Virus record (IMG/VR): IMGVR_UViG_3300013104_000048
Coordinates: 1 to 39,071 of that record
Direction: 5' to 3' (one strand)
DNA from: a virus
DNA: 39,071 nt
Part shown: one piece after another, positions 1,142 to 33,075 of the stretch
Layout of the letters: each line of letters opens with the position of its first letter
Position numbering within the stretch: position 1 is the first letter of the stretch
Notes under the pieces: model-generated
Told to the model about the DNA's origin: nothing
Database searches by the model: none
Seen by the model: the letters and a program-made list of their open reading frames with translations, nothing else
Made by a program: the position numbers and the translations under genes

Positions 1142-2563
1142 ATGGAAATTAATATGAATAAAAAATTTTGCGGCTTTTATACCCCTAAGCAAGAAAGTTA
1201 CAAGGAAATTTGGAACGACAAGAATACATTGTTCATATTTGACACCAACACTTTGTTAAACTTATACAGATGTGAAGAGCAGACAAAAGATGACATACTG
1301 AGTGTAATGAATGTGTTATCTTCGAGATCATGGTTTCCTTTTCAAGTCTGCCTTGAATATCAACGCAATAGAATTGATGTAATTTCCCAAAGTATAAAAA
1401 GCCTAGAGAAATTAAAAAAAAGCATTACGTCCATGGTTAATACAACAGACAATGCTCTATCTGAAGCCCAAGTCAAGAAACACTTATACTCATCTCTTTC
1501 AGAAGAAGTTTCTTTATTTAAGGAATCTTTATCTACAACTATCAATTCTTTTGTTAAAGATAAAATAGAACCAAGAATAAAATCAAAAGAAAAAATTAAA
1601 ATATCCGATGTAATAAGAAAGAATCTTGATGAGATTATTGGAGATAATTGCGGAGACATTCCAAATCAAGAGACCATTAATGAAATAAACAAAGAGGGTG
1701 CTGAAAGATACTCTAAAAAAACACCACCAGGCTTTATGGACGAAAAAAAAGGAGAAGCAGTAACTCACTATAATGGCGTTGAGTTTAAAGATAAATTTGG
1801 GGATTTATATCTTTGGAAAGAGATTCTAGACATTTCAAAAAAGCATGAGAATTATAATATAATTTTCGTCACCGACGATTCAAAAAAAGACTGGTGGTTT
1901 AGTCATGACAATAAAACTATCGGTCCCAGCGAACCCTTGCAAACAGAGATCTATTTTACAACAAAAATCAAAAGTTTTAGAATGATCAATCACTCAGGTT
2001 TTTTATATGAAGCTGGAAAATATCTCGATAACCTACAAATAAAACCATCTTCTGTTGAAGATATTAAAGAGATTTCCTCTGACACTTTGAGAAAACTCAG
2101 TGAGATTGACTATAGTTCCCTTGTGAGGAATACATTTAAAACATCACCAACTAAACGTATGTTGGTAAGAAAAGGAAAAGGAATAGATGTTCTGAAGCAA
2201 TATTACATTCCTTTCCACTTCAAAAAAGAAAATATAGATAACATCATAGCTGCATATGATCATTTCCGCACTAAGTATGAAGAACTTCAAACTCAGTGCA
2301 TTGAACTTAACGAAATGATACATTTCAATTATGATATAGGTTTAGATAGTGAAGAGGTATATAATCTTCGAATGGCGATTTTAAATGAAATAAAAACCAG
2401 ACTATTAAATCTATCTGATTCCCTTATGCTAATTGCAGAAAAATTAAACGACTCTGATTTATCAGAGACTCAAGAAACATTGGATATTTCACTTTCTAAC
2501 ATATCCGCAGAAACTATAAAAATCAGAAAATTAATATTAGATCTTTCAGAACAATTGCTGTAA
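1142..2563 (+). CDS. PIN-like-domain protein (PIN_8 type), putative nuclease
   Basis: 473 residues. The N-terminal third has the PIN signature: IFDTNTLLN with Asp34, then Glu72 in the segment VCLEYQR, and later IIFVTDDSKKDWW (near residue 240) for the third acidic cluster. The remainder is lysine-rich and helical, with probable coiled coils (residues 80-190 and 380-470). PIN_8 proteins of this layout are common in mobile elements and are suspected RNases or defence effectors; no substrate can be read from sequence. Base composition is clearly more AT-rich than flanking genes, a sign of separate acquisition. Met5 at 1154 is an alternative start, and neither has a strong ribosome site. It converges with umuC, 15 bases apart. 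Confidence 0.7.
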   Translation: MEINMNKKFCGFYTPKQESYKEIWNDKNTLFIFDTNTLLNLYRCEEQTKDDILSVMNVLSSRSWFPFQVCLEYQRNRIDVISQSIKSLEKLKKSITSMVNTTDNALSEAQVKKHLYSSLSEEVSLFKESLSTTINSFVKDKIEPRIKSKEKIKISDVIRKNLDEIIGDNCGDIPNQETINEINKEGAERYSKKTPPGFMDEKKGEAVTHYNGVEFKDKFGDLYLWKEILDISKKHENYNIIFVTDDSKKDWWFSHDNKTIGPSEPLQTEIYFTTKIKSFRMINHSGFLYEAGKYLDNLQIKPSSVEDIKEISSDTLRKLSEIDYSSLVRNTFKTSPTKRMLVRKGKGIDVLKQYYIPFHFKKENIDNIIAAYDHFRTKYEELQTQCIELNEMIHFNYDIGLDSEEVYNLRMAILNEIKTRLLNLSDSLMLIAEKLNDSDLSETQETLDISLSNISAETIKIRKLILDLSEQLL

Positions 2564-2578
2564 TTTTCGAAGAAATAC

Positions 2579-3847
2579 TTATTTAACGATAATTATGTCT
2601 GAAATTCTTGTTGTATAGCGCGGGGATAACTTCTCGCGCTTCATCTGCCACTGCTGCTGAATGCCCTGTCCTGCAAAGTAAAGCGTGCCTTTTCCGTCTT
2701 TCGCGTTCAGGTAATCGAGTACCTCCATAAGCCTTTCGCTACCCGCTCGCGGCGCATTCTCGTCAAACAAGTTAAGCTGAGCCACACCCTGGCTGAAGAA
2801 ATCGCCGAGCATAATGCCGGCTTTCTGGTACCGGTGTCCATCCTGCCAGATTTTGTCCAGGCACTTTACCGCGGCGTTGATAATGTCTCGGCTATCCTGC
2901 GTTGGAGTGAGCAACTTCATTGAGGCGCTATTACCATAATATGGTTCGTTAAGCGCAAAGGGAGAGGTCTTCACGAACGCTGAGATAAAGCGGCAATACT
3001 GGTGCTCACCGCGGAGCTTTTCAGCTCCGCGGGCGGCATAAGAGCAAATAGCCTGGCGCATCTGCTCATAATCGGTAACGCGTTCGCCGAATGACCGGCT
3101 GCAGACGATTTCCTGTTTTGCGGGGGCAAACTCTTCCAGATCAAGACAGGGTTCGCCGCGCAGCTCCCGGACAGTGCGCTCGAGTACCACGTTAAAGTGC
3201 TTCCGGATTATCCACGTACTCTGCTCTGAAAGGTCTAAGGCCGTTTTAATACCCATCGCGTTTAGCTTTTTACTTATTCGGCGACCAACACCCCAGACGT
3301 CCTCTACAGGTACCACAGAAAGCAGCCTGCGCTGGCGATCAACATTCGAGAGGTCAACTACCCCACCCGTCTGCCGCTGCCATTTCTTTGCGGCGTGGTT
3401 GGCCAGCTTTGCTAGTGTTTTTGTCTGCGCAATGCCCACTCCTACCGTCAGGTGTGTGCGCTTCAGAACCGTAGCACGGATTTCTTTCCCGAAGTCAGTC
3501 AGGTCCCGGCAGTTTCGAACGCCAGTCAGGTCGCAAAAAGCTTCGTCAATACTGTAAATTTCGACTCGAGGGCTCATTTCTTCCAGCGTTGTCATAACGC
3601 GATTGGACATGTCAGCATACAACTCGTAGTTGCTGCTGAAGCAGACAACACCGGCGCGCCTGAAAAGCTCTGTCTGCTTAAAGAAGGGCTCGCCCATGCT
3701 AATTCCAGCCGCCTTGGCCTCAGCGCTTCGGGCTATCACACAGCCATCGTTATTCGAGAGAACAACAACCGGTCGGCCTCTTAAATCGGGCCTGAACACC
3801 GTCTCGCATGATGCGTAGAACGAATTCACATCACAGAGCGCGAACAT
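2579..3847 (-). CDS. umuC: UmuC, catalytic subunit of DNA polymerase V
   Basis: 422 residues, the same length as E. coli UmuC and highly similar along its length. It is a Y-family translesion polymerase that works with UmuD'2 and RecA filaments. Visible signatures are the N-terminal [14 protein letters not shown] with the first metal-binding Asp6, the YSIDEAF motif (Asp101/Glu102), the helix-hairpin-helix region near 175-190, and the beta-clamp motif QLNLF near residue 357. The ATG follows the umuD stop by two bases, so the genes form one operon. No frameshift or missing catalytic residue is seen, so it should be functional. Confidence 0.96.
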
Positions 3848-3849
3848 GT

Positions 3850-4269
3850 TTAGCTCGCCGATTTGACGATGAAAGTCACGACGCCGAAAACGTCCAGCGT
3901 GTCTTCGCAGCCAACAACAATAGGATTGTAGGCGCTGTTCATAGGATTGAGTTGCACGGTCGGGCGCAGTTGCAGGCGTTTAACAGTAAACTCCCCTTCC
4001 ACCGCGGCGATGACAATGTCACCGTGCTCAGCAGTCCTGGAGCTGTCCACCACCAGCAGATCTCCGTCGCTGATCCCGGCTTCGATCATAGAATCACCCG
4101 CGGCTTTAACGAAATACGTTGAACTCGGGTGAGCGACAAGTAACTCATTGAGATCGATGCGCTGTTCAACGTAATCAGCCGCGGGGCTTGGGAAACCACA
4201 CTGCACTAAGTCACTGAAAAGCGGGAGAACAATAATTTCTCTCAGTTCTGTAGGTCTGAAGAATTCCAT
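3850..4269 (-). CDS. umuD: UmuD, SOS mutagenesis protein (S24 self-cleaving subunit of Pol V)
   Basis: 139 residues from the ATG at 4269, the exact E. coli UmuD length; this start has AGAGGT upstream and is preferred to an in-frame extension. The self-cleavage site Cys24-Gly25 (VQCG), nucleophile Ser60 (GDSM) and general base Lys97 (FTVKRL) are all at canonical positions. RecA-stimulated cleavage yields UmuD', which joins UmuC. It is the first gene of a umuDC operon with a LexA box immediately upstream, so SOS induction is expected. It should give the lysogen a second, phage-borne Pol V. Confidence 0.96.
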
Positions 4270-4286
4270 TACGCATACCTCTAATA

Positions 4287-4302
4287 CTGTTTTTATATAC
4301 AG
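4287..4302 (-). promoter_or_regulatory. LexA (SOS) box of umuDC
   Basis: The 16-base core read on the minus strand is CTGTATATAAAAACAG, a perfect CTG-N10-CAG LexA site, as I recall the same as at E. coli umuDC, flanked by TA on both sides. It lies 18 bases before the umuD ATG. Confidence 0.93.
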
Positions 4303-4311
4303 TAGTTTCAT

Positions 4312-27153: not shown

Positions 27154-27393
27154 CTATCCTTTCTGGATGTTAACGACTATTGGTTGCTGGCAGTTCGCCT
27201 GCCACGCTTTGTTATGCGCCAGGATGTCTTTCTTCGTCTGGCGGTCCAAAACATCCCAATCATGAGCGGTGCCGTAAATGGGTCTAACCCAATCGCAAGC
27301 AGTGTCCACTACCTCAACCCTTTCGGGTCCAGTCTGTGCGCAGCTCGCGATCAACATCGTCATCAGGCATGTGATTAACAGTCTGCTGTACAT
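27154..27393 (-). CDS. Rz1-like outer-membrane spanin lipoprotein
   Basis: 79 residues from MYSRLLITCLMT at 27393. A lipobox LIASC at about 15-19 follows a hydrophobic signal segment, predicting lipidation at Cys19. The mature part is short and has two more cysteines. The start lies in another frame within the Rz-like gene, as is typical of overlapping spanin pairs. It would complex with the Rz-like protein to fuse the membranes at lysis. Confidence 0.75.
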   Translation of the reverse strand: MYSRLLITCLMTMLIASCAQTGPERVEVVDTACDWVRPIYGTAHDWDVLDRQTKKDILAHNKAWQANCQQPIVVNIQKG

Positions 27394-27586
27394 TGCTGGC
27401 CTCTTTCGCGACTTCCGCTTTTCGTTCCGCTGCGGCGACCGCCGTCGCTGCATTCTCTTCTGTGCGCTGCTGTCTGGCTTTTGCCTCTGCCTTACCACTG
27501 CCGCGTATACTTCCAGCAAAAAAACCGCTGAGCGCGACGGCAACCAGCGCACCAAGACCACCCAAAACCATTTCGATGATGCTCAT
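27314..27586 (-). CDS. Rz-like inner-membrane spanin (DUF2681 type)
   Basis: 90 residues from MSIIEMVLGG at 27586, preceded by GAGGTGGCT. One N-terminal membrane helix (about 5-24) is followed by a charged coiled coil (KAEAKARQQRTEENAATAVAAAERKAEV). This is the usual i-spanin build. It overlaps the endolysin stop region and contains the start of the Rz1-like gene. Confidence 0.75.
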   Translation of the reverse strand: MSIIEMVLGGLGALVAVALSGFFAGSIRGSGKAEAKARQQRTEENAATAVAAAERKAEVAKEASNVQQTVNHMPDDDVDRELRTDWTRKG

Positions 27587-27593
27587 AGCCACC

Positions 27594-28223
27594 TCAGACC
27601 AGCACGGATTTCGCCTGGTTAAACAGTGCGCGACGTTTATCCAGACCATGTTGACCGCCGTTGATAAGCAGCGTTACGCGCTCAACATCGCCGGAGTGAA
27701 GCAGGCAACCGCGGGACACATAAAACCACGCAGCGGAACGGGCGGCGTGCTCATCAACCTCAAGCAATTCTGGGTGCGCCACCAGGTCAAGCTTTAGCGC
27801 CTGGCCGCAGCTGCGATAGTTGCTCAGACCGGTGATTTGCTTCAGTCCCCGGCCGCGATATTTCCAGCCATCGCCAGCCACCTGATTACCCAGTTTCTTT
27901 TTGCCCCACTCGCCGCCGTATACAAGATTGGCAATCGCTTTTTGGTTGGCAGGTTGCGTTGCCGTTCTGCCAAGTGCCGCGGCCTGTTGAGGAGTGATAC
28001 GGTGCCTGCCGAACGTTGGCACTAAGTTTTCAGCCGCATAATCCAGACTTTCCACCAGCCGGGTAAATCCTCCGGACTCATGGCCCATCTGGGCGATAAA
28101 CATGGCTTGATCTAGCGGTGCTGTAATGCCGTATTCCTTCATCACCTTGTCAATTTGTGGGAACCAGCGCGCGGCCACTCCGGCACTTATACCTGCCGCT
28201 CTTTGAAATTGTTGTTGATTCAC
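27594..28223 (-). CDS. Endolysin, glycoside hydrolase family 19 (chitinase-like)
   Basis: 209 residues from a GTG with GGAG upstream, overlapping the holin stop by four bases (GTGA). The GH19 catalytic segment AQMGHESGGFTRLVESLDYAAE is at about 46-67; Glu51 is the likely acid. The repeated family motifs GRGLKQITGLSNYR (about 127-141) and a C-terminal NGG turn are present. It degrades peptidoglycan after release by the holin. No signal peptide is visible, so it depends on the holin. Confidence 0.92.
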   Translation of the reverse strand: MNQQQFQRAAGISAGVAARWFPQIDKVMKEYGITAPLDQAMFIAQMGHESGGFTRLVESLDYAAENLVPTFGRHRITPQQAAALGRTATQPANQKAIANLVYGGEWGKKKLGNQVAGDGWKYRGRGLKQITGLSNYRSCGQALKLDLVAHPELLEVDEHAARSAAWFYVSRGCLLHSGDVERVTLLINGGQHGLDKRRALFNQAKSVLV

Positions 28224-28516
28224 GTTGTGCTATCTCCAGTAATACGAGCGATATTGCCGCCCGCACGCCAGATAGCGACGCAGACAACAACGTTGATGAG
28301 TATTTCTCCATAATCGACCTGGACATAATCACCGTGCCAGATACGAAAGGCGGTGTATGCCGGGGCCAGAATTAGCCCATACGCCAGCAGCTCCATAATT
28401 CGGCGGCGACGCATACTGCGCTTACGGAAAAACATCAGGCGGAACGAAATCATGATGCAGGCCAGTGCATTAAGGTGAAGCAATAGCCACGGATAGTTCT
28501 GCAGCAGCCACGTCAT
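28220..28516 (-). CDS. Putative holin (3-TM family)
   Basis: 98 residues with hydrophobic segments at about 5-28, 42-60 and 66-90 and a basic loop FFRKRSMRRRRI between the first two. This resembles the phage holin_3 type. It is sandwiched between a second holin-like gene and the endolysin and is coupled to both by overlaps. Confidence 0.75.
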   Translation of the reverse strand: MTWLLQNYPWLLLHLNALACIMISFRLMFFRKRSMRRRRIMELLAYGLILAPAYTAFRIWHGDYVQVDYGEILINVVVCVAIWRAGGNIARITGDSTT

Positions 28517-28917
28517 TCTTCCCCCTTCACGCCGGGCAGATTGCCTGTTTTTGAGCGGGCAAGAATGCGCAGCAGAATAGTCACGGAAACAGTAGATGCC
28601 GCCAGTGCGCCAATCGCGGGCGATACTTTGATTGTGACTGGCGGACTAAGCTGATTTAGTCCGGCGTTGATAAGGGCGGCGATAATTTCTGAAGCAGTAC
28701 CGGCACAGTAAATGCCACCGATAAAGGAAATGAGAGCAAAAAGAATTTGCTTCCAGATTTTATGGTCCTCAGAACTGAGGATATAAAGCGCCGCCCCTGC
28801 GAGGGAGCAGACCATAACAGCAGGCGTAGCCTCTGGAAAAAGCGTGGCGAATGTAACTCCGGTTGTGCCAGCAGCCACGCCCGCCGTTACCGTTGCAGTT
28901 ATTGGTTCTGCGGACAT
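28513..28917 (-). CDS. Putative holin or holin partner (134 aa)
   Basis: 134 residues with four likely membrane spans (about 6-25, 32-50, 56-78 and 98-118). It starts MSAEPITATVTAGVAAG and carries AALYILSSEDHKIWKQILFAL. The first gene of the lysis cassette, with GAGGGGGC before its ATG. Two small membrane genes before an endolysin commonly mean holin and antiholin; which is which is not clear. Confidence 0.7.
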   Translation of the reverse strand: MSAEPITATVTAGVAAGTTGVTFATLFPEATPAVMVCSLAGAALYILSSEDHKIWKQILFALISFIGGIYCAGTASEIIAALINAGLNQLSPPVTIKVSPAIGALAASTVSVTILLRILARSKTGNLPGVKGEE

Positions 28918-28995: not shown

Positions 28996-29121
28996 AAACT
29001 ATAAATCCCACCTCTTCTGGCAGGATTACGATGTTTAAGCGGTGTGACGAAGTTAGCACTCTTAACAGAGTACGGTGTTTTTTGCGTACGCGTTAGCATT
29101 TTTTATTGATTTTATTTTTAT

Positions 29122-29127
29122 TATAAT
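29122..29127 (+). promoter_or_regulatory. Likely -10 element for the Ntn-hydrolase unit
   Basis: A perfect TATAAT 41 bases before the ATG at 29168, in a very AT-rich stretch. The -35 position (29099-29104) is only TTTTTT, so a weak or activated promoter is possible. Upstream, ACTCT-TAAC-AGAGT (29058-29071) is an inverted repeat that could bind a regulator. Confidence 0.45.
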
Positions 29128-29167: not shown

Positions 29168-30466
29168 ATGACGGCAGAAATCGCGGTTTATAATAAACTT
29201 GCAGTATCGTTAGCAGCCGATTCCGCTGTGACTATTACAGGCGGTAATACTGTTAAAATCAACAATGGCGCTGAGAAATTATTTGCCTTAAGTAAACACC
29301 ATCCTGTTGGCCTAATGGTTTACGGTGCAGGTAGTTTGTGTGGCGTACCTTGGGAAATGATTATAAAGGAATATAGAAGGCAGCTAGGTGATGTCTGTTA
29401 CGATACTGTTGAGCAGTATGCAGAGAAATTTTGGGATTTCTTGTGCGATAGTAATCACATAATACCAGACGACATTAAAAATAATCACTTAGAGGAAATA
29501 CTTCTTTATAATGTCCTACCCGGGTTGATGCAGCACATTCAAGATTATCCGGTGAAAATGTTTATTGAAGAAAATCAGCGTCATCCTAACACACTTGAGA
29601 CCTATAACATTATTGAAGCTGCTTGTAAGGAGTTCGTTAATAACTTTAATGGAAGCGAATTCTACAAAGGGTTTGATGATAGTGACCTTAGTAAGGCCAT
29701 AGCATTTTCAAAACCAATTGCCAACGAAGCATGCGAGTCAATTTTATATCGTGAAGAAGGTATAGTCATTCCAAATACTTTGATTGACGCACTTTCAACA
29801 ATGTTTGCCCATATTATATGTAGAAAATCTCCCTTCGGAACAAATACCGGACTAGTTATAGCAGGTTATGGTGACAAAGAATATTTTCCAAGTATTTTAG
29901 CTTATGATGTAATAGGTTTTTTCGGTGAGAAGTTAAGATATTCACCAAATATGGACAAAAGTACTAGTGGAGGCGAAAGCGGTGTCACTGCCTATGCACA
30001 AGAAGATGAAGTAAGTGCATTCATGACTGGCATCAGTGGAGAGCTTCAAGAGTATATGTTTCCACAAATTGAAAAGGGCGCGGAAAAAATATTGAGTGAT
30101 GTGGCAGAAAAAATAAAAGCATCCTCATTACCTCCTAAAGAATGCGAGGCGTTAATAACGAGTATTTATGATTTTGCTAAATCTAACTGGTCGACTACTA
30201 CTAGTGACATACGTGAATATATAATTAACAACCATGTAGGTAAGGTTGTTGAAATGATTGAGTTTTTACCAAAACAGGACTTGGGCTACATGGCTGAATC
30301 CTTGGTTAACCTAACAGCTTTCAAGAGAAAGATCTCAAATGACAGTGAAACTGTTGGTGGTCCGATAGATGTTGCTATAATATCAAAAGGAGATGGCTTT
30401 GTTTGGGTGAAACGAAAGCATTATTTTGATAAAGAGCTTAACTATCAGTACTTTAAAAGAAACTAA
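29168..30466 (+). CDS. Proteasome/HslV-like N-terminal-threonine hydrolase (uncharacterised)
   Basis: 432 residues from MTAEIAVYNK; the open frame extends 31 codons upstream, but this start puts Thr2 at the N-terminus after Met removal. Counting Thr as 1, the fold signatures line up with HslV and proteasome beta subunits: Thr1, Asp17 in SLAADSA, Lys36 in GAEKLFAL (Lys33 equivalent), then GLMVYGAG. A helical insert (about 60-220) precedes GLVIAGYGDKEYFP (228-241), which matches the G-D strand of proteasomes, and a long helical C-terminal part ends with a final beta hairpin (GGPIDVAIISKGDGFVWVK). No signal peptide. It is AT-rich, on the opposite strand to its surroundings, with its own promoter and terminator. 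Substrate unknown. Confidence 0.75.
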   Translation: MTAEIAVYNKLAVSLAADSAVTITGGNTVKINNGAEKLFALSKHHPVGLMVYGAGSLCGVPWEMIIKEYRRQLGDVCYDTVEQYAEKFWDFLCDSNHIIPDDIKNNHLEEILLYNVLPGLMQHIQDYPVKMFIEENQRHPNTLETYNIIEAACKEFVNNFNGSEFYKGFDDSDLSKAIAFSKPIANEACESILYREEGIVIPNTLIDALSTMFAHIICRKSPFGTNTGLVIAGYGDKEYFPSILAYDVIGFFGEKLRYSPNMDKSTSGGESGVTAYAQEDEVSAFMTGISGELQEYMFPQIEKGAEKILSDVAEKIKASSLPPKECEALITSIYDFAKSNWSTTTSDIREYIINNHVGKVVEMIEFLPKQDLGYMAESLVNLTAFKRKISNDSETVGGPIDVAIISKGDGFVWVKRKHYFDKELNYQYFKRN

Positions 30467-30477
30467 CGAGGAAAATC

Positions 30478-30633
30478 ATGGCTACGCTGCTCCAATCCAA
30501 CCTTGAGTTAAGAGAATGGCAGAAAAAATTTAACCCTTCTCAACCTGTTAAGACTATAACTCCTACGGCGAAGCGCACCACTGTAGATAAAACCAGTAAT
30601 AAATATCTTCAACAGAGTTTCTTTAGTCGTTAA
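30478..30633 (+). CDS. Small 51-residue partner of the Ntn hydrolase
   Basis: 51 residues starting MATLLQSNLELREWQ and ending QQSFFSR. It begins 11 bases after the hydrolase stop, with AACGAGGA upstream of its ATG, and ends just before a terminator, so the two genes form one unit. It is basic, with a likely N-terminal helix and a disordered middle. I do not recognise it. It may be a substrate, regulator or adaptor of the neighbour. Confidence 0.65.
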   Translation: MATLLQSNLELREWQKKFNPSQPVKTITPTAKRTTVDKTSNKYLQQSFFSR

Positions 30634-30637
30634 CATC

Positions 30638-30660
30638 AAAGGGGGCGTGCCCCCTTTTTT
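30638..30660 (+). terminator. Terminator after the Ntn-hydrolase unit
   Basis: AAAGGGGG-CGTG-CCCCCTTTTTT. On the other strand the same stem ends in only three T, and Q's stop codon lies in it, so it may work in both directions. Confidence 0.85.
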
Positions 30661-31003
30661 AATTTAGCATAGACATAACACCATCTAGATAACCTAAAGT
30701 TGCCTGCAACTTTTTTCGTATTGTACCGTCAGAGCATTTCCGCTTTTTAGCAATACAACGAAGTGAAATTCCAATAACGAAGTGAGCGATAATTAGCTCA
30801 TACTCTTCCGGCTTATATTTTTTTAGACGAGCTACACAACCATCAATCAAGATCCCTTCATCATCATCACACTGCAGACGTGACTTCTTACCGTGCGGCA
30901 GTAAACTTTTGAAACCAGCAGCTATAGGTTGCCAGTCGACACCACTGCTATCAGCTGCAGCCCAGGCACCCCAGCGGTCCATTACCTCGTACATATCACG
31001 CAT
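30659..31003 (-). CDS. Q: Late antiterminator Q
   Basis: 114 residues from MRDMYEV at 31003, with GGAGAG six bases upstream; a TTG at 31015 extends the frame. The sequence is a recognisable phage Q of the RWGAWAA type: DRWGAWAAADSSGVDW (about 8-23), GFKSLLPHGKKSRLQC, DGCVARLKKYKPEEYELIIAHF (about 56-77), and a C-terminal helix-turn-helix region AKKRKCSDGTIRKKL. It lets RNA polymerase run through the terminator before the lysis and virion genes. The Ntn-hydrolase unit now lies between Q and its target region. Confidence 0.93.
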   Translation of the reverse strand: MRDMYEVMDRWGAWAAADSSGVDWQPIAAGFKSLLPHGKKSRLQCDDDEGILIDGCVARLKKYKPEEYELIIAHFVIGISLRCIAKKRKCSDGTIRKKLQATLGYLDGVMSMLN

Positions 31004-31004
31004 T

Positions 31005-31364
31005 TTACTCTCCAATGTTATCGATAATTATCATTCCGGTTTCGCCCCATACTTTTGATCTCCGGGCGTCCCAAATGTGGGAATCATCCTCAAACAAGGC
31101 GTCCAGCAGTGATTTTGTTAAGTTGTCCAGATCGGGCTTTTGCTGATGGGGCTGGCCGACCATAGCCGCGCGCTTTTTCTTACTCCAGCTCTGCGGCATC
31201 GGCAAAACGAAGGTGATATGGGTGCCGTTCTCCGGTACCTGGATGCCATGCAGGTGGGCTTCATCGCAAAACATGCGATAGCGCATCACAGTTGGCCGCT
31301 GCTTCCATTTATCACGGCGTGTCATGCGGGGTTTTCCGACAGGGGTGATGATGTATTTAGGCAT
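31005..31364 (-). CDS. rusA: RusA-like Holliday junction resolvase
   Basis: 119 residues from MPKYIITPVGKPRMTR at 31364, with AGGAGG upstream; this is the usual RusA length and start. The N-terminal GKPRMTRRDKW, central THITFVLPMP, and KPDLDNLTKSLLDALFEDDSHIWD (about 79-102) carry the acidic active-site residues (equivalents of Asp70, Asp72, Asp91). It resolves branched DNA before packaging. The gene sits directly before Q, the standard lambdoid nin position. Confidence 0.93.
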   Translation of the reverse strand: MPKYIITPVGKPRMTRRDKWKQRPTVMRYRMFCDEAHLHGIQVPENGTHITFVLPMPQSWSKKKRAAMVGQPHQQKPDLDNLTKSLLDALFEDDSHIWDARRSKVWGETGMIIIDNIGE

Positions 31365-33075
31365 GCAGCGCCTCCTGTATGCGGGAACCAATCCAGCGCA
31401 TCACCGGTACAGCCATTGAATTGCCGATCGCTTTATATCGAGGACCATCGGCGGCCAGTCGGTAAGCCTGCTCTGCAGTCAGTTCGGGGCGGTGGTGGCG
31501 CAGGTAGGCGTATTCCTCCGCGGTGAGTTGCTTGCGTTTCGTTGTCGGAATCAGGGTGTGATTATCAGGAAAGCCCTGCAGGCGCTCGCACTCCACAGGG
31601 GTCAGACGTCGGACAGCCATACCTTTCATCACTGTCGGGGCAAGATTGGATCCGCTGCAGGCGCTGGTCAGTGTCGGGGCCTGCTCTTCCGCATACCCTA
31701 TTCCTCCGGCTTTTGCTCCCTGCCCTCCCTTGAATGCATAGGCTATCGCAGGATATCCCTGGCCCGGTTTACCGCCACCAGCTGCTAATGGACCTGTTAT
31801 TTGTCTGTCCCCGTCCTGAAACCTGACTTCACCTCTTGTGTTCTCTGCAAAGGAATAGACAATGGCTGGAGGTGCTCCAGCGTTTTGGTTGCTGTCGCTG
31901 CTATTTCCAGCCCTTAAGGTCGGCGAAATCTCAGCTTTAGCATCTTGACCGCTGTCCTTTGAGCTAAATGCTATAACTGCGTTTTCCTGTCCGTGGTTGC
32001 GCCCCAATGTATGGGCCATGTTTCGGAGAGTATCGGGGTCCTGTGTCCCGTGCACCGCAAGCGTCTCATGGTCAGCCCCAGGTTTCGCCCGAAGTACTCC
32101 CACTCCGGTGGTGAAAGATGCGTGCCCGTTGCTGCTGAAAACAATCGGTGCTTCGTGGTTACAGGTCAGCGTGGGCGCTGTATCATCGGTTTTAATTTCA
32201 GCACCACCCTGCCCGTGCGCCATCGCGATAATCGGCGTACCTCTACCGGTACCGTCCTCGCTACCATCGAAGCCCTCTGCTTTCAGGGTATGGCTGATAT
32301 CCCCGGTCACGCACTCTGGGATCAGATGTCCGGCTTGTGCCTGGTTGTCGTCTGCACCACATACTCCAACGCCGTTTGAAGTAAGCGCGGCAACTGCCTT
32401 CGCCTTTTCTCTGCCCGGCGGAGAATTCCGGCGCAGGCCTTCGGACTCAAAAAGAATTTTTGCGGGATCGATATCCCCTCTAGCTGTTGCGACAACAAAC
32501 ACACGTCTGCGTCGTTGGGCCACTCCGAAAAATTGAGCGTCGAGCACTCGCCAAGCAATAGCTCTTTCTGGTCCAAGCACATAACCAGCGTTTGCCCATC
32601 GCTTCCCTGGTGATTCCAGCGCGCAGCTTTCGCCGGCAAGCCCTGCAAGAAAACATCCGAAAGCGTTATCTTTGCTGCTGAATACTCCGGGTACGTTTTC
32701 CCAGACGACGATGACAGGTGATTTTCCCTGTTCACGTCGTTTTTCATCGATAGCATTTACCAGATCCACAAAAGCCAAAGTTAACTGGCCGCGTTCGTCA
32801 GCCAGCCCATTACGTAAACCCGCAATGCTGAACGCCTGGCAAGGGGTTCCCCCCACCAGCACATCGGGCGCGTCAGTTTTTCCGGCACGGATTGCCGCGG
32901 CGATTTGGGTCATGTCGCCCAGATTGGTAATATCCGGCCACCGGTACGCCAGAACAGCGGAGGGGAATTTTTCTATCTCAGCGAACCATGCCGGTCGCCA
33001 GCCCAGGCAATGCCATGCCACGCTGGCGGCCTCGATGCCGCTGCACACTGAGCCGTAACTGACTGGCCTATTCAT
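31357..33075 (-). CDS. DNA (cytosine-5) methyltransferase
   Basis: 572 residues. Motif I near the N-terminus (SVCSGIEAASVAWHCLG), motif IV with PCQ (GGTPCQAFSIAGLRNG, catalytic Cys about 79), motif VI ENV (WENVPGV), motif VIII (QRRRRVFVVA), and motifs IX-X (RLTPVECERLQGFPDN; YKAIGNSMAVPV) are all present. The segment between VIII and IX (about 210-470) is long and low-complexity and should hold target recognition. No restriction enzyme gene is next to it, so it is a solitary enzyme, likely for protection against host restriction. Overlaps rusA and the Ref-like gene. Confidence 0.93.
   Translation of the reverse strand: MNRPVSYGSVCSGIEAASVAWHCLGWRPAWFAEIEKFPSAVLAYRWPDITNLGDMTQIAAAIRAGKTDAPDVLVGGTPCQAFSIAGLRNGLADERGQLTLAFVDLVNAIDEKRREQGKSPVIVVWENVPGVFSSKDNAFGCFLAGLAGESCALESPGKRWANAGYVLGPERAIAWRVLDAQFFGVAQRRRRVFVVATARGDIDPAKILFESEGLRRNSPPGREKAKAVAALTSNGVGVCGADDNQAQAGHLIPECVTGDISHTLKAEGFDGSEDGTGRGTPIIAMAHGQGGAEIKTDDTAPTLTCNHEAPIVFSSNGHASFTTGVGVLRAKPGADHETLAVHGTQDPDTLRNMAHTLGRNHGQENAVIAFSSKDSGQDAKAEISPTLRAGNSSDSNQNAGAPPAIVYSFAENTRGEVRFQDGDRQITGPLAAGGGKPGQGYPAIAYAFKGGQGAKAGGIGYAEEQAPTLTSACSGSNLAPTVMKGMAVRRLTPVECERLQGFPDNHTLIPTTKRKQLTAEEYAYLRHHRPELTAEQAYRLAADGPRYKAIGNSMAVPVMRWIGSRIQEALHA

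Follow-up and report, generated by a model that had tools for sequence, protein, structure and literature searches.

Fuchs, Alva and Lupas described 22 new proteasome homologs (Fuchs et al., 2021; PMC8665760). Amongst the families in that study is PMI-4 (Proteasome homolog with Multiple Insertions 4; reference sequence HDY66466.1), which bears long helical inserts after H1/H2 and between H3/H4 and comprised 501 sequences at 90% identity from many bacterial phyla, Euryarchaeota and phages. Neither a function-suggestive genomic context or co-occurrence nor an AAA+ partner was found for the homologs of that study, and the positions of the inserts speak against proteasome-like rings (PMC8665760). 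A monomeric relative, connectase, acts as a specific ligase (PMC8665760). The family of the enzyme studied here has apparently been known since 2021 without a functional clue. We report a conserved small partner gene beside the enzyme gene, missed in the sequence-only reading that preceded this analysis, and this partner provides a first handle on the function of the enzyme family.

The window, i.e., the whole stretch of DNA that was analyzed, is a virus record of 39,071 bases. PHROG matches within it include an O-like replication gene, a Q-like antiterminator, a large terminase, a tail sheath and lysis genes. The unit and its surroundings comprise the following features.

27154-27561, minus strand: Rz-like spanin gene, beyond the endolysin gene (PHROG)
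27594-28223, minus strand: endolysin gene, beyond the holin genes (PHROG)
28220-28516, minus strand: holin gene flanking the slot (PHROG)
28513-28917, minus strand: second holin gene flanking the slot (PHROG)
29033-29104, unstranded: conserved phage block TTTTTGCGTACGCGTTA, on the edge of the slot that faces the lysis genes (sequence comparison)
29122-29127, plus strand: TATAAT hexamer, a perfect match; promoter uncertain
29168-30466, plus strand: predicted proteasome-like N-terminal threonine hydrolase, 432 aa before Met removal; PHROG 5990; fits PMI-4
30478-30633, plus strand: small partner ORF, 51 aa, net charge +6, pI 10.4, MATLLQSNLELREWQKKFNPSQPVKTITPTAKRTTVDKTSNKYLQQSFFSR, with an AGGA ribosome site upstream
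30638-30657, plus strand: intrinsic-terminator-like hairpin closing the two-gene unit
30659-31015, minus strand: Q-like antiterminator gene flanking the slot (PHROG)

The two genes are flanked by Q on one side and by the lysis genes on the other, all of which run on the opposite strand, and the GC content of the enzyme gene is 37%, as against 50-57% across most of the flanking DNA. The sequence-only reading had described an AT-rich gene, opposite in strand to its neighbours and built like a moron, and the composition, the orientation and the moron-like cargo position all agree with it. It had also given the gene a terminator and a -10 element of its own. The former stands, as the terminator-like hairpin, but the latter lacks support: no -35 element was found for the TATAAT hexamer, no sigma-70 site there passed our scan, and the hexamer is not conserved in the closest relatives, so that a promoter claim is unsupported. 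Nor is the unit a self-contained single gene, as had been proposed, since a second conserved gene stands before the terminator.

The TTTTTGCGTACGCGTTA block was considered as a promoter of the cassette and rejected. It is also found upstream of the lysis gene essD in E. coli TOP10 and beside different cargo in Klebsiella phage P7641, which assigns it to the phage; judged by these comparisons, it probably forms part of the region that holds the late promoter in Q-type phages, not of the cassette. The block is present in 895 of 5426 E. coli genomes. It holds a GCGTACGC palindrome, and its counterpart in locus L178 lies near 2534-2611. An Rfam search of the cassette region returned sub-threshold matches only.

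The enzyme frame runs from the ATG at 29168 to the TAA at 30464-30466 and encodes a protein beginning MTAEIAVYNK; conserved residues are given below in the mature numbering, in which the Thr after Met is 1. The protein matched PHROG 5990, which carries no annotated function, over its full length (E 1.4e-146). Searches of Pfam, NCBIfam and PADLOC with the enzyme and the small protein gave nothing usable, and a search of PDB sequences with the single enzyme sequence gave no match. An AlphaFold2 model built from 49 aligned sequences had a mean pLDDT of 88.7 and a pTM of 0.84. By Foldseek, all 41 PDB matches to this model at E <= 0.001 were 20S proteasome subunits (best E 4.5e-7), and the best match in a viral structure library was a phage protein named proteasome beta subunit. 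The enzyme is thus predicted to have a proteasome beta-like fold, with two beta-sheets flanked by helices.

In the model, the elements follow one another as in a proteasome subunit, interrupted by two helical inserts at about 101-218 and 291-365. The first, after H1/H2, consists of helices 101-136, 142-160, 171-191 and 203-218 and lies between H81-94 and the strand at 227-233. The second, between H3 and H4, consists of helices 291-317 and 323-365 and lies between H279-287 and H369-390. Helices 62-73 and 81-94 are present, and there is no helix between the strands over 21-54. Strands 400-406 and 410-415 (GGPIDVAIISKGDGFVWV), past the second insert, belong to the core fold in the model, and we conclude that no C-terminal domain has been added. 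A family profile weakly matched the last strands of Thermoplasma proteasome beta (1pma_B), with E = 0.028; the sequence of those strands, GGMIDVAVITRKDGYVQL, is one that we take to resemble GGPIDVAIISKGDGFVWV.

Conservation was scored over a non-redundant set of 113 relatives, all below 85% identity. Position 1, the nucleophile, is Thr in 112 and Ser in one. D17, S18, K29, K36, G232, G234, V401, G409, W412, K416 and Y418 are invariant in all 113, the two glycines G232 and G234 forming part of the AGYG strand, and no catalytically dead copy occurs amongst these relatives. Such conservation excludes chance as the source of the catalytic features. The predicted catalytic set of Thr1/Ser1, Asp17 and Lys33 is present, with K29 or K36, as placed by sequence position, as the equivalent of Lys33; Thermoplasma proteasome beta has lysines at 29 and 33, presumably in a similar setting. 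The Met that precedes such a Thr is normally removed. At loci L070 and L085 (8001-9287; Gracilimonas, Rhodohalobacter), the protein starts with MSS, and Ser replaces Thr as the predicted N-terminal nucleophile.

These results bear out most of what had been read from the letters of the gene, i.e., a proteasome-like N-terminal threonine hydrolase with Thr directly after Met, Asp17, a lysine at 36 and an AGYG strand. Two outcomes had been named beforehand as contradicting that assignment, a different fold and loss of the Thr1/Asp17/Lys arrangement; we looked for both and neither occurred. A long helical insert and a C-terminal extension had also been proposed, of which the helical insertion holds, as two inserts, but the C-terminus proved to be core strands. 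The enzyme itself is not new: its two helical inserts fit PMI-4, already described in 2021 (PMC8665760). This assignment follows the published description of inserts and distribution, with which the modelled inserts after H1/H2 and between H3/H4, the spread over bacterial phyla, Euryarchaeota and phages, and the hundreds of sequences are all consistent.

The second gene lies between the enzyme gene and the terminator stem. Across the family, we counted ORFs of 30-80 codons that start -25 to +50 bases from the enzyme stop and have a recognised ribosome site, with starts chosen by rule. An ORF of this kind followed the enzyme gene in 69 of the 96 non-redundant relatives with enough sequence, but only 40 of 557 control genes, i.e., other genes of at least 200 aa from the same loci (Fisher p = 3e-42). 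Several of the 27 loci scored as missing do have a comparable small ORF, but without a recognised ribosome site. No other neighbour recurs at a fixed position across the family. The small ORF is under purifying selection: pN was well below pS in 18 of 18 pairs of relatives (0.123 and 0.710, respectively, between the window and locus L130). Moreover, within clades the distances between enzymes are correlated with those between small proteins (Mantel r 0.81-0.90, p <= 0.0006), and the two products differ in charge, with median pI values of 5.1 for the acidic enzymes and 9.8 for the basic small proteins. Taken together, the data demonstrate a two-gene cassette in which the enzyme and the small protein co-diverge.

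Our preferred reading, held tentatively and put at a little short of an even chance, is that of a lysogenic-conversion (moron) cassette of two genes, in which the small protein controls the enzyme and the pair acts against competing phages. The first gene would supply a catalytically intact threonine hydrolase of the PMI-4 type, in which removal of Met would free Thr1. The small, basic and mostly disordered product of the second would take the place of an AAA+ unfoldase, binding and controlling the acidic enzyme. In the lysogen the pair would be held in check; infection by a rival phage might then disturb it, whereupon the enzyme would cut or transfer a target protein and the rival would be blocked. 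The action against phages is our best guess, plausible in view of the cargo position and the spread of the family. Several observations weigh against it: neither protein matched a known defence family in PADLOC at E <= 1, no defence role for the enzyme family was found in the literature searched, the small protein could not be placed confidently on the enzyme, and its clades can barely be aligned.

The last two points come from modelling and comparison of the small proteins. AlphaFold2 models in which the enzyme was fused in frame to the small ORF by read-through, with stop codons replaced by Gly, showed no confident docking, and the small protein had a pLDDT below 50 over most of its length. 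A generic form common to archaea and many bacterial phyla has the pattern S..EFE..[YF]FPKS ... LG..LA.ESL.KIR..L, Bacillota small proteins carry FFNLP, and enterobacterial ones carry ELREWQKKFNPS and, close to the C-terminus, F[S/T/C]x. Profile comparisons between clades gave weak links (best single-pair E 0.016), and for this reason we do not claim a common origin, although a single one for all forms is possible.

The conserved aromatic-proline motif of these proteins (YFPKS / KFNPS / FFNLP) and the second enterobacterial motif near the C-terminus would suit the closest rival to a defence-type explanation, in which the small protein is a dedicated substrate and the enzyme a specific processing enzyme, or a connectase-like ligase, acting at the conserved motif. 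The precedent of connectase as a monomeric, specific ligase and the insert positions that disfavour proteasome-like rings (PMC8665760) point the same way. However, no invariant cleavage motif is common to all clades, the S3/S4 insert of connectase is absent from the enzyme model, and the divergence of the small protein between clades is high for a fixed substrate site. We regard this dedicated-substrate reading as unlikely, at about one chance in four.

Relatives of the enzyme were found in 13 phage records, 10 plasmids, 163 IMG/VR loci and 485 loci in GTDB genomes of bacteria and archaea, ranging over Enterobacteria, Planctomycetota, Cyanobacteria, Bacillota and several archaeal groups. At the level of the family, the enzyme is therefore not phage-specific. 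No ATPase recurs amongst its neighbours across the family, in line with the absence of an ATPase partner noted there, and in cellular genomes the flanking genes vary. Amongst 137 neighbours, PADLOC and Pfam gave mads-type, Fic, methyltransferase and PDC matches; some of the families near the enzyme gene are defence-related, but we claim no enrichment and did not count these matches as evidence.

The lack of a recurring ATPase partner, the 485 relatives in bacterial and archaeal genomes and the finding of just one copy per genome in the 20 genomes tested would also accord with a general stress function that is merely carried by phages, the small protein being an adaptor or activator and the enzyme an ATP-independent protease that clears unfolded or damaged proteins. 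Presence is patchy, however, with the enzyme in 4 of the 296 genomes from one enterobacterial order and 4 of the 58 from one archaeal class, the cargo slots described below are interchangeable, and bacterial and archaeal copies interleave in the enzyme tree, none of which suits housekeeping; we consider this account improbable. In the tree, a Planctomycetota copy groups with a Methanophagales copy, and the Methanobacteriota copies require six changes, as many as with shuffled labels. The pattern suits mobile cargo, although extra changes alone are no proof of transfer.

The preferred reading, of a cassette directed against competing phages, draws on the slots in which the genes are found. In an E. 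coli prophage the cassette likewise sits between Q and the lysis side. Elsewhere a similar Q-side slot holds other genes: in E. coli prophage L173 (1750-3477), a three-gene set of a TIGR04255 protein and two hypothetical proteins, without a Pfam or PADLOC match; and in Klebsiella phage P7641 (L175, 3004-5365), an NA37 (YejK-like) gene and a 405-aa gene on the strand opposite to their neighbours. The 405-aa gene had no Pfam or PADLOC match, and the two form a candidate for another cargo pair. The slot may also be empty. A Rac-like E. coli prophage has the enzyme gene between a repressor-like gene and ydaE, a place that we take to be the site of sieB in K-12 Rac, and relatives have HicAB or other small genes there instead. 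In the streptococcal satellite Javan468 the enzyme gene and the small gene are the last two genes, and in Streptococcus phage Javan85 the enzyme gene is the last gene, at the right end, after the lysin. The interchangeable prophage slots and the right-end position in streptococcal phages and satellites point to a role in phage competition.

The occurrence of the enzyme in phages of several architectures might instead reflect a service to the phage's own infection, early or late, in which the cassette would cut a host defence or regulatory protein (counter-defence or takeover). This we hold to be very improbable: the late genes run on the other strand, the cassette has a terminator of its own and sits by repressors or at right ends, which are places of lysogen-expressed genes, and cellular genomes commonly carry the enzyme. 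A toxin-antitoxin or addiction pair, in which a toxic free enzyme would be neutralised by the small protein and the pair would keep the element in place rather than fight phages, would fit the adjacency of the two genes, the pairing of a basic protein with an acidic enzyme and the presence of HicAB as other cargo of the same prophage slot. The toxin-like gene comes first, however, and copies are single per genome, and we give this reading only a slight chance.

Several other genes of the window were recorded. Near one phage end, 439-1107 (plus strand) encodes an SRAP (SOS response associated peptidase) protein (Pfam E 1.7e-50) and 1142-2563 (plus strand) a protein of 473 aa that contains the PIN-like domain PIN_8 (E 1.8e-55); these two genes (439-2563) are possibly further cargo. 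The phage also carries a UmuC-like error-prone polymerase (IMS, DUF4113; 2579-3847, minus strand) together with a UmuD-like gene of the S24 peptidase type (3850-4311, minus strand). A 572-aa C-5 cytosine methylase is encoded at 31357-33075 (minus strand); its match falls into two stretches, which are separated by an extra segment.

The reading of the cassette as an anti-phage moron has a wider form, which we think rather doubtful, namely that of a widespread pair in which a proteasome-fold enzyme is controlled or fed by a tiny basic protein, not by an ATPase, and serves as mobile immunity carried by phages and satellites as well as by bacteria and archaea. Should the pair work without an ATPase, it would represent another way to gate a proteasome-fold enzyme; if the mobile-immunity reading is true, no proteasome relative would have had such a role before, as far as the literature searched goes.

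Amongst known systems, prophage cargo pairs at interchangeable slots, such as HicAB in the Rac-like slot, resemble the cassette in being compact and in coming and going at the same prophage sites, but have no sequence relation to it. HslV has Thr1, Asp17, the Lys residues and the proteasome fold in common with the enzyme; HslV, however, is compact and paired with the HslU unfoldase, whereas the enzyme has 432 aa with inserts and no recurring ATPase neighbour. PPH is likewise a phage-borne proteasome-like protein, but of about 140 residues and without H2 (PMC8665760), whereas H81-94 and two large inserts are present in the enzyme model. Connectase, an archaeal protein ligase, is similar in its proteasome fold, N-terminal Thr, inserted helices and lack of an unfoldase partner. 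It lacks H1/H2 and has a two-helix insert between S3 and S4 (PMC8665760), whereas the AlphaFold2 model of the enzyme has H1/H2, no S3/S4 insert and inserts elsewhere, and the paired small gene further sets the enzyme apart. PMI-3 has both insert sites in common with the enzyme, but few sequences. PMI-4 agrees with the enzyme in the proteasome-like core, Thr1, Asp17, Lys, both long helical inserts and the lack of an AAA+ partner; as published, it had no suggestive gene context, whereas the enzyme described here is accompanied by a conserved small downstream gene and occupies cargo slots.
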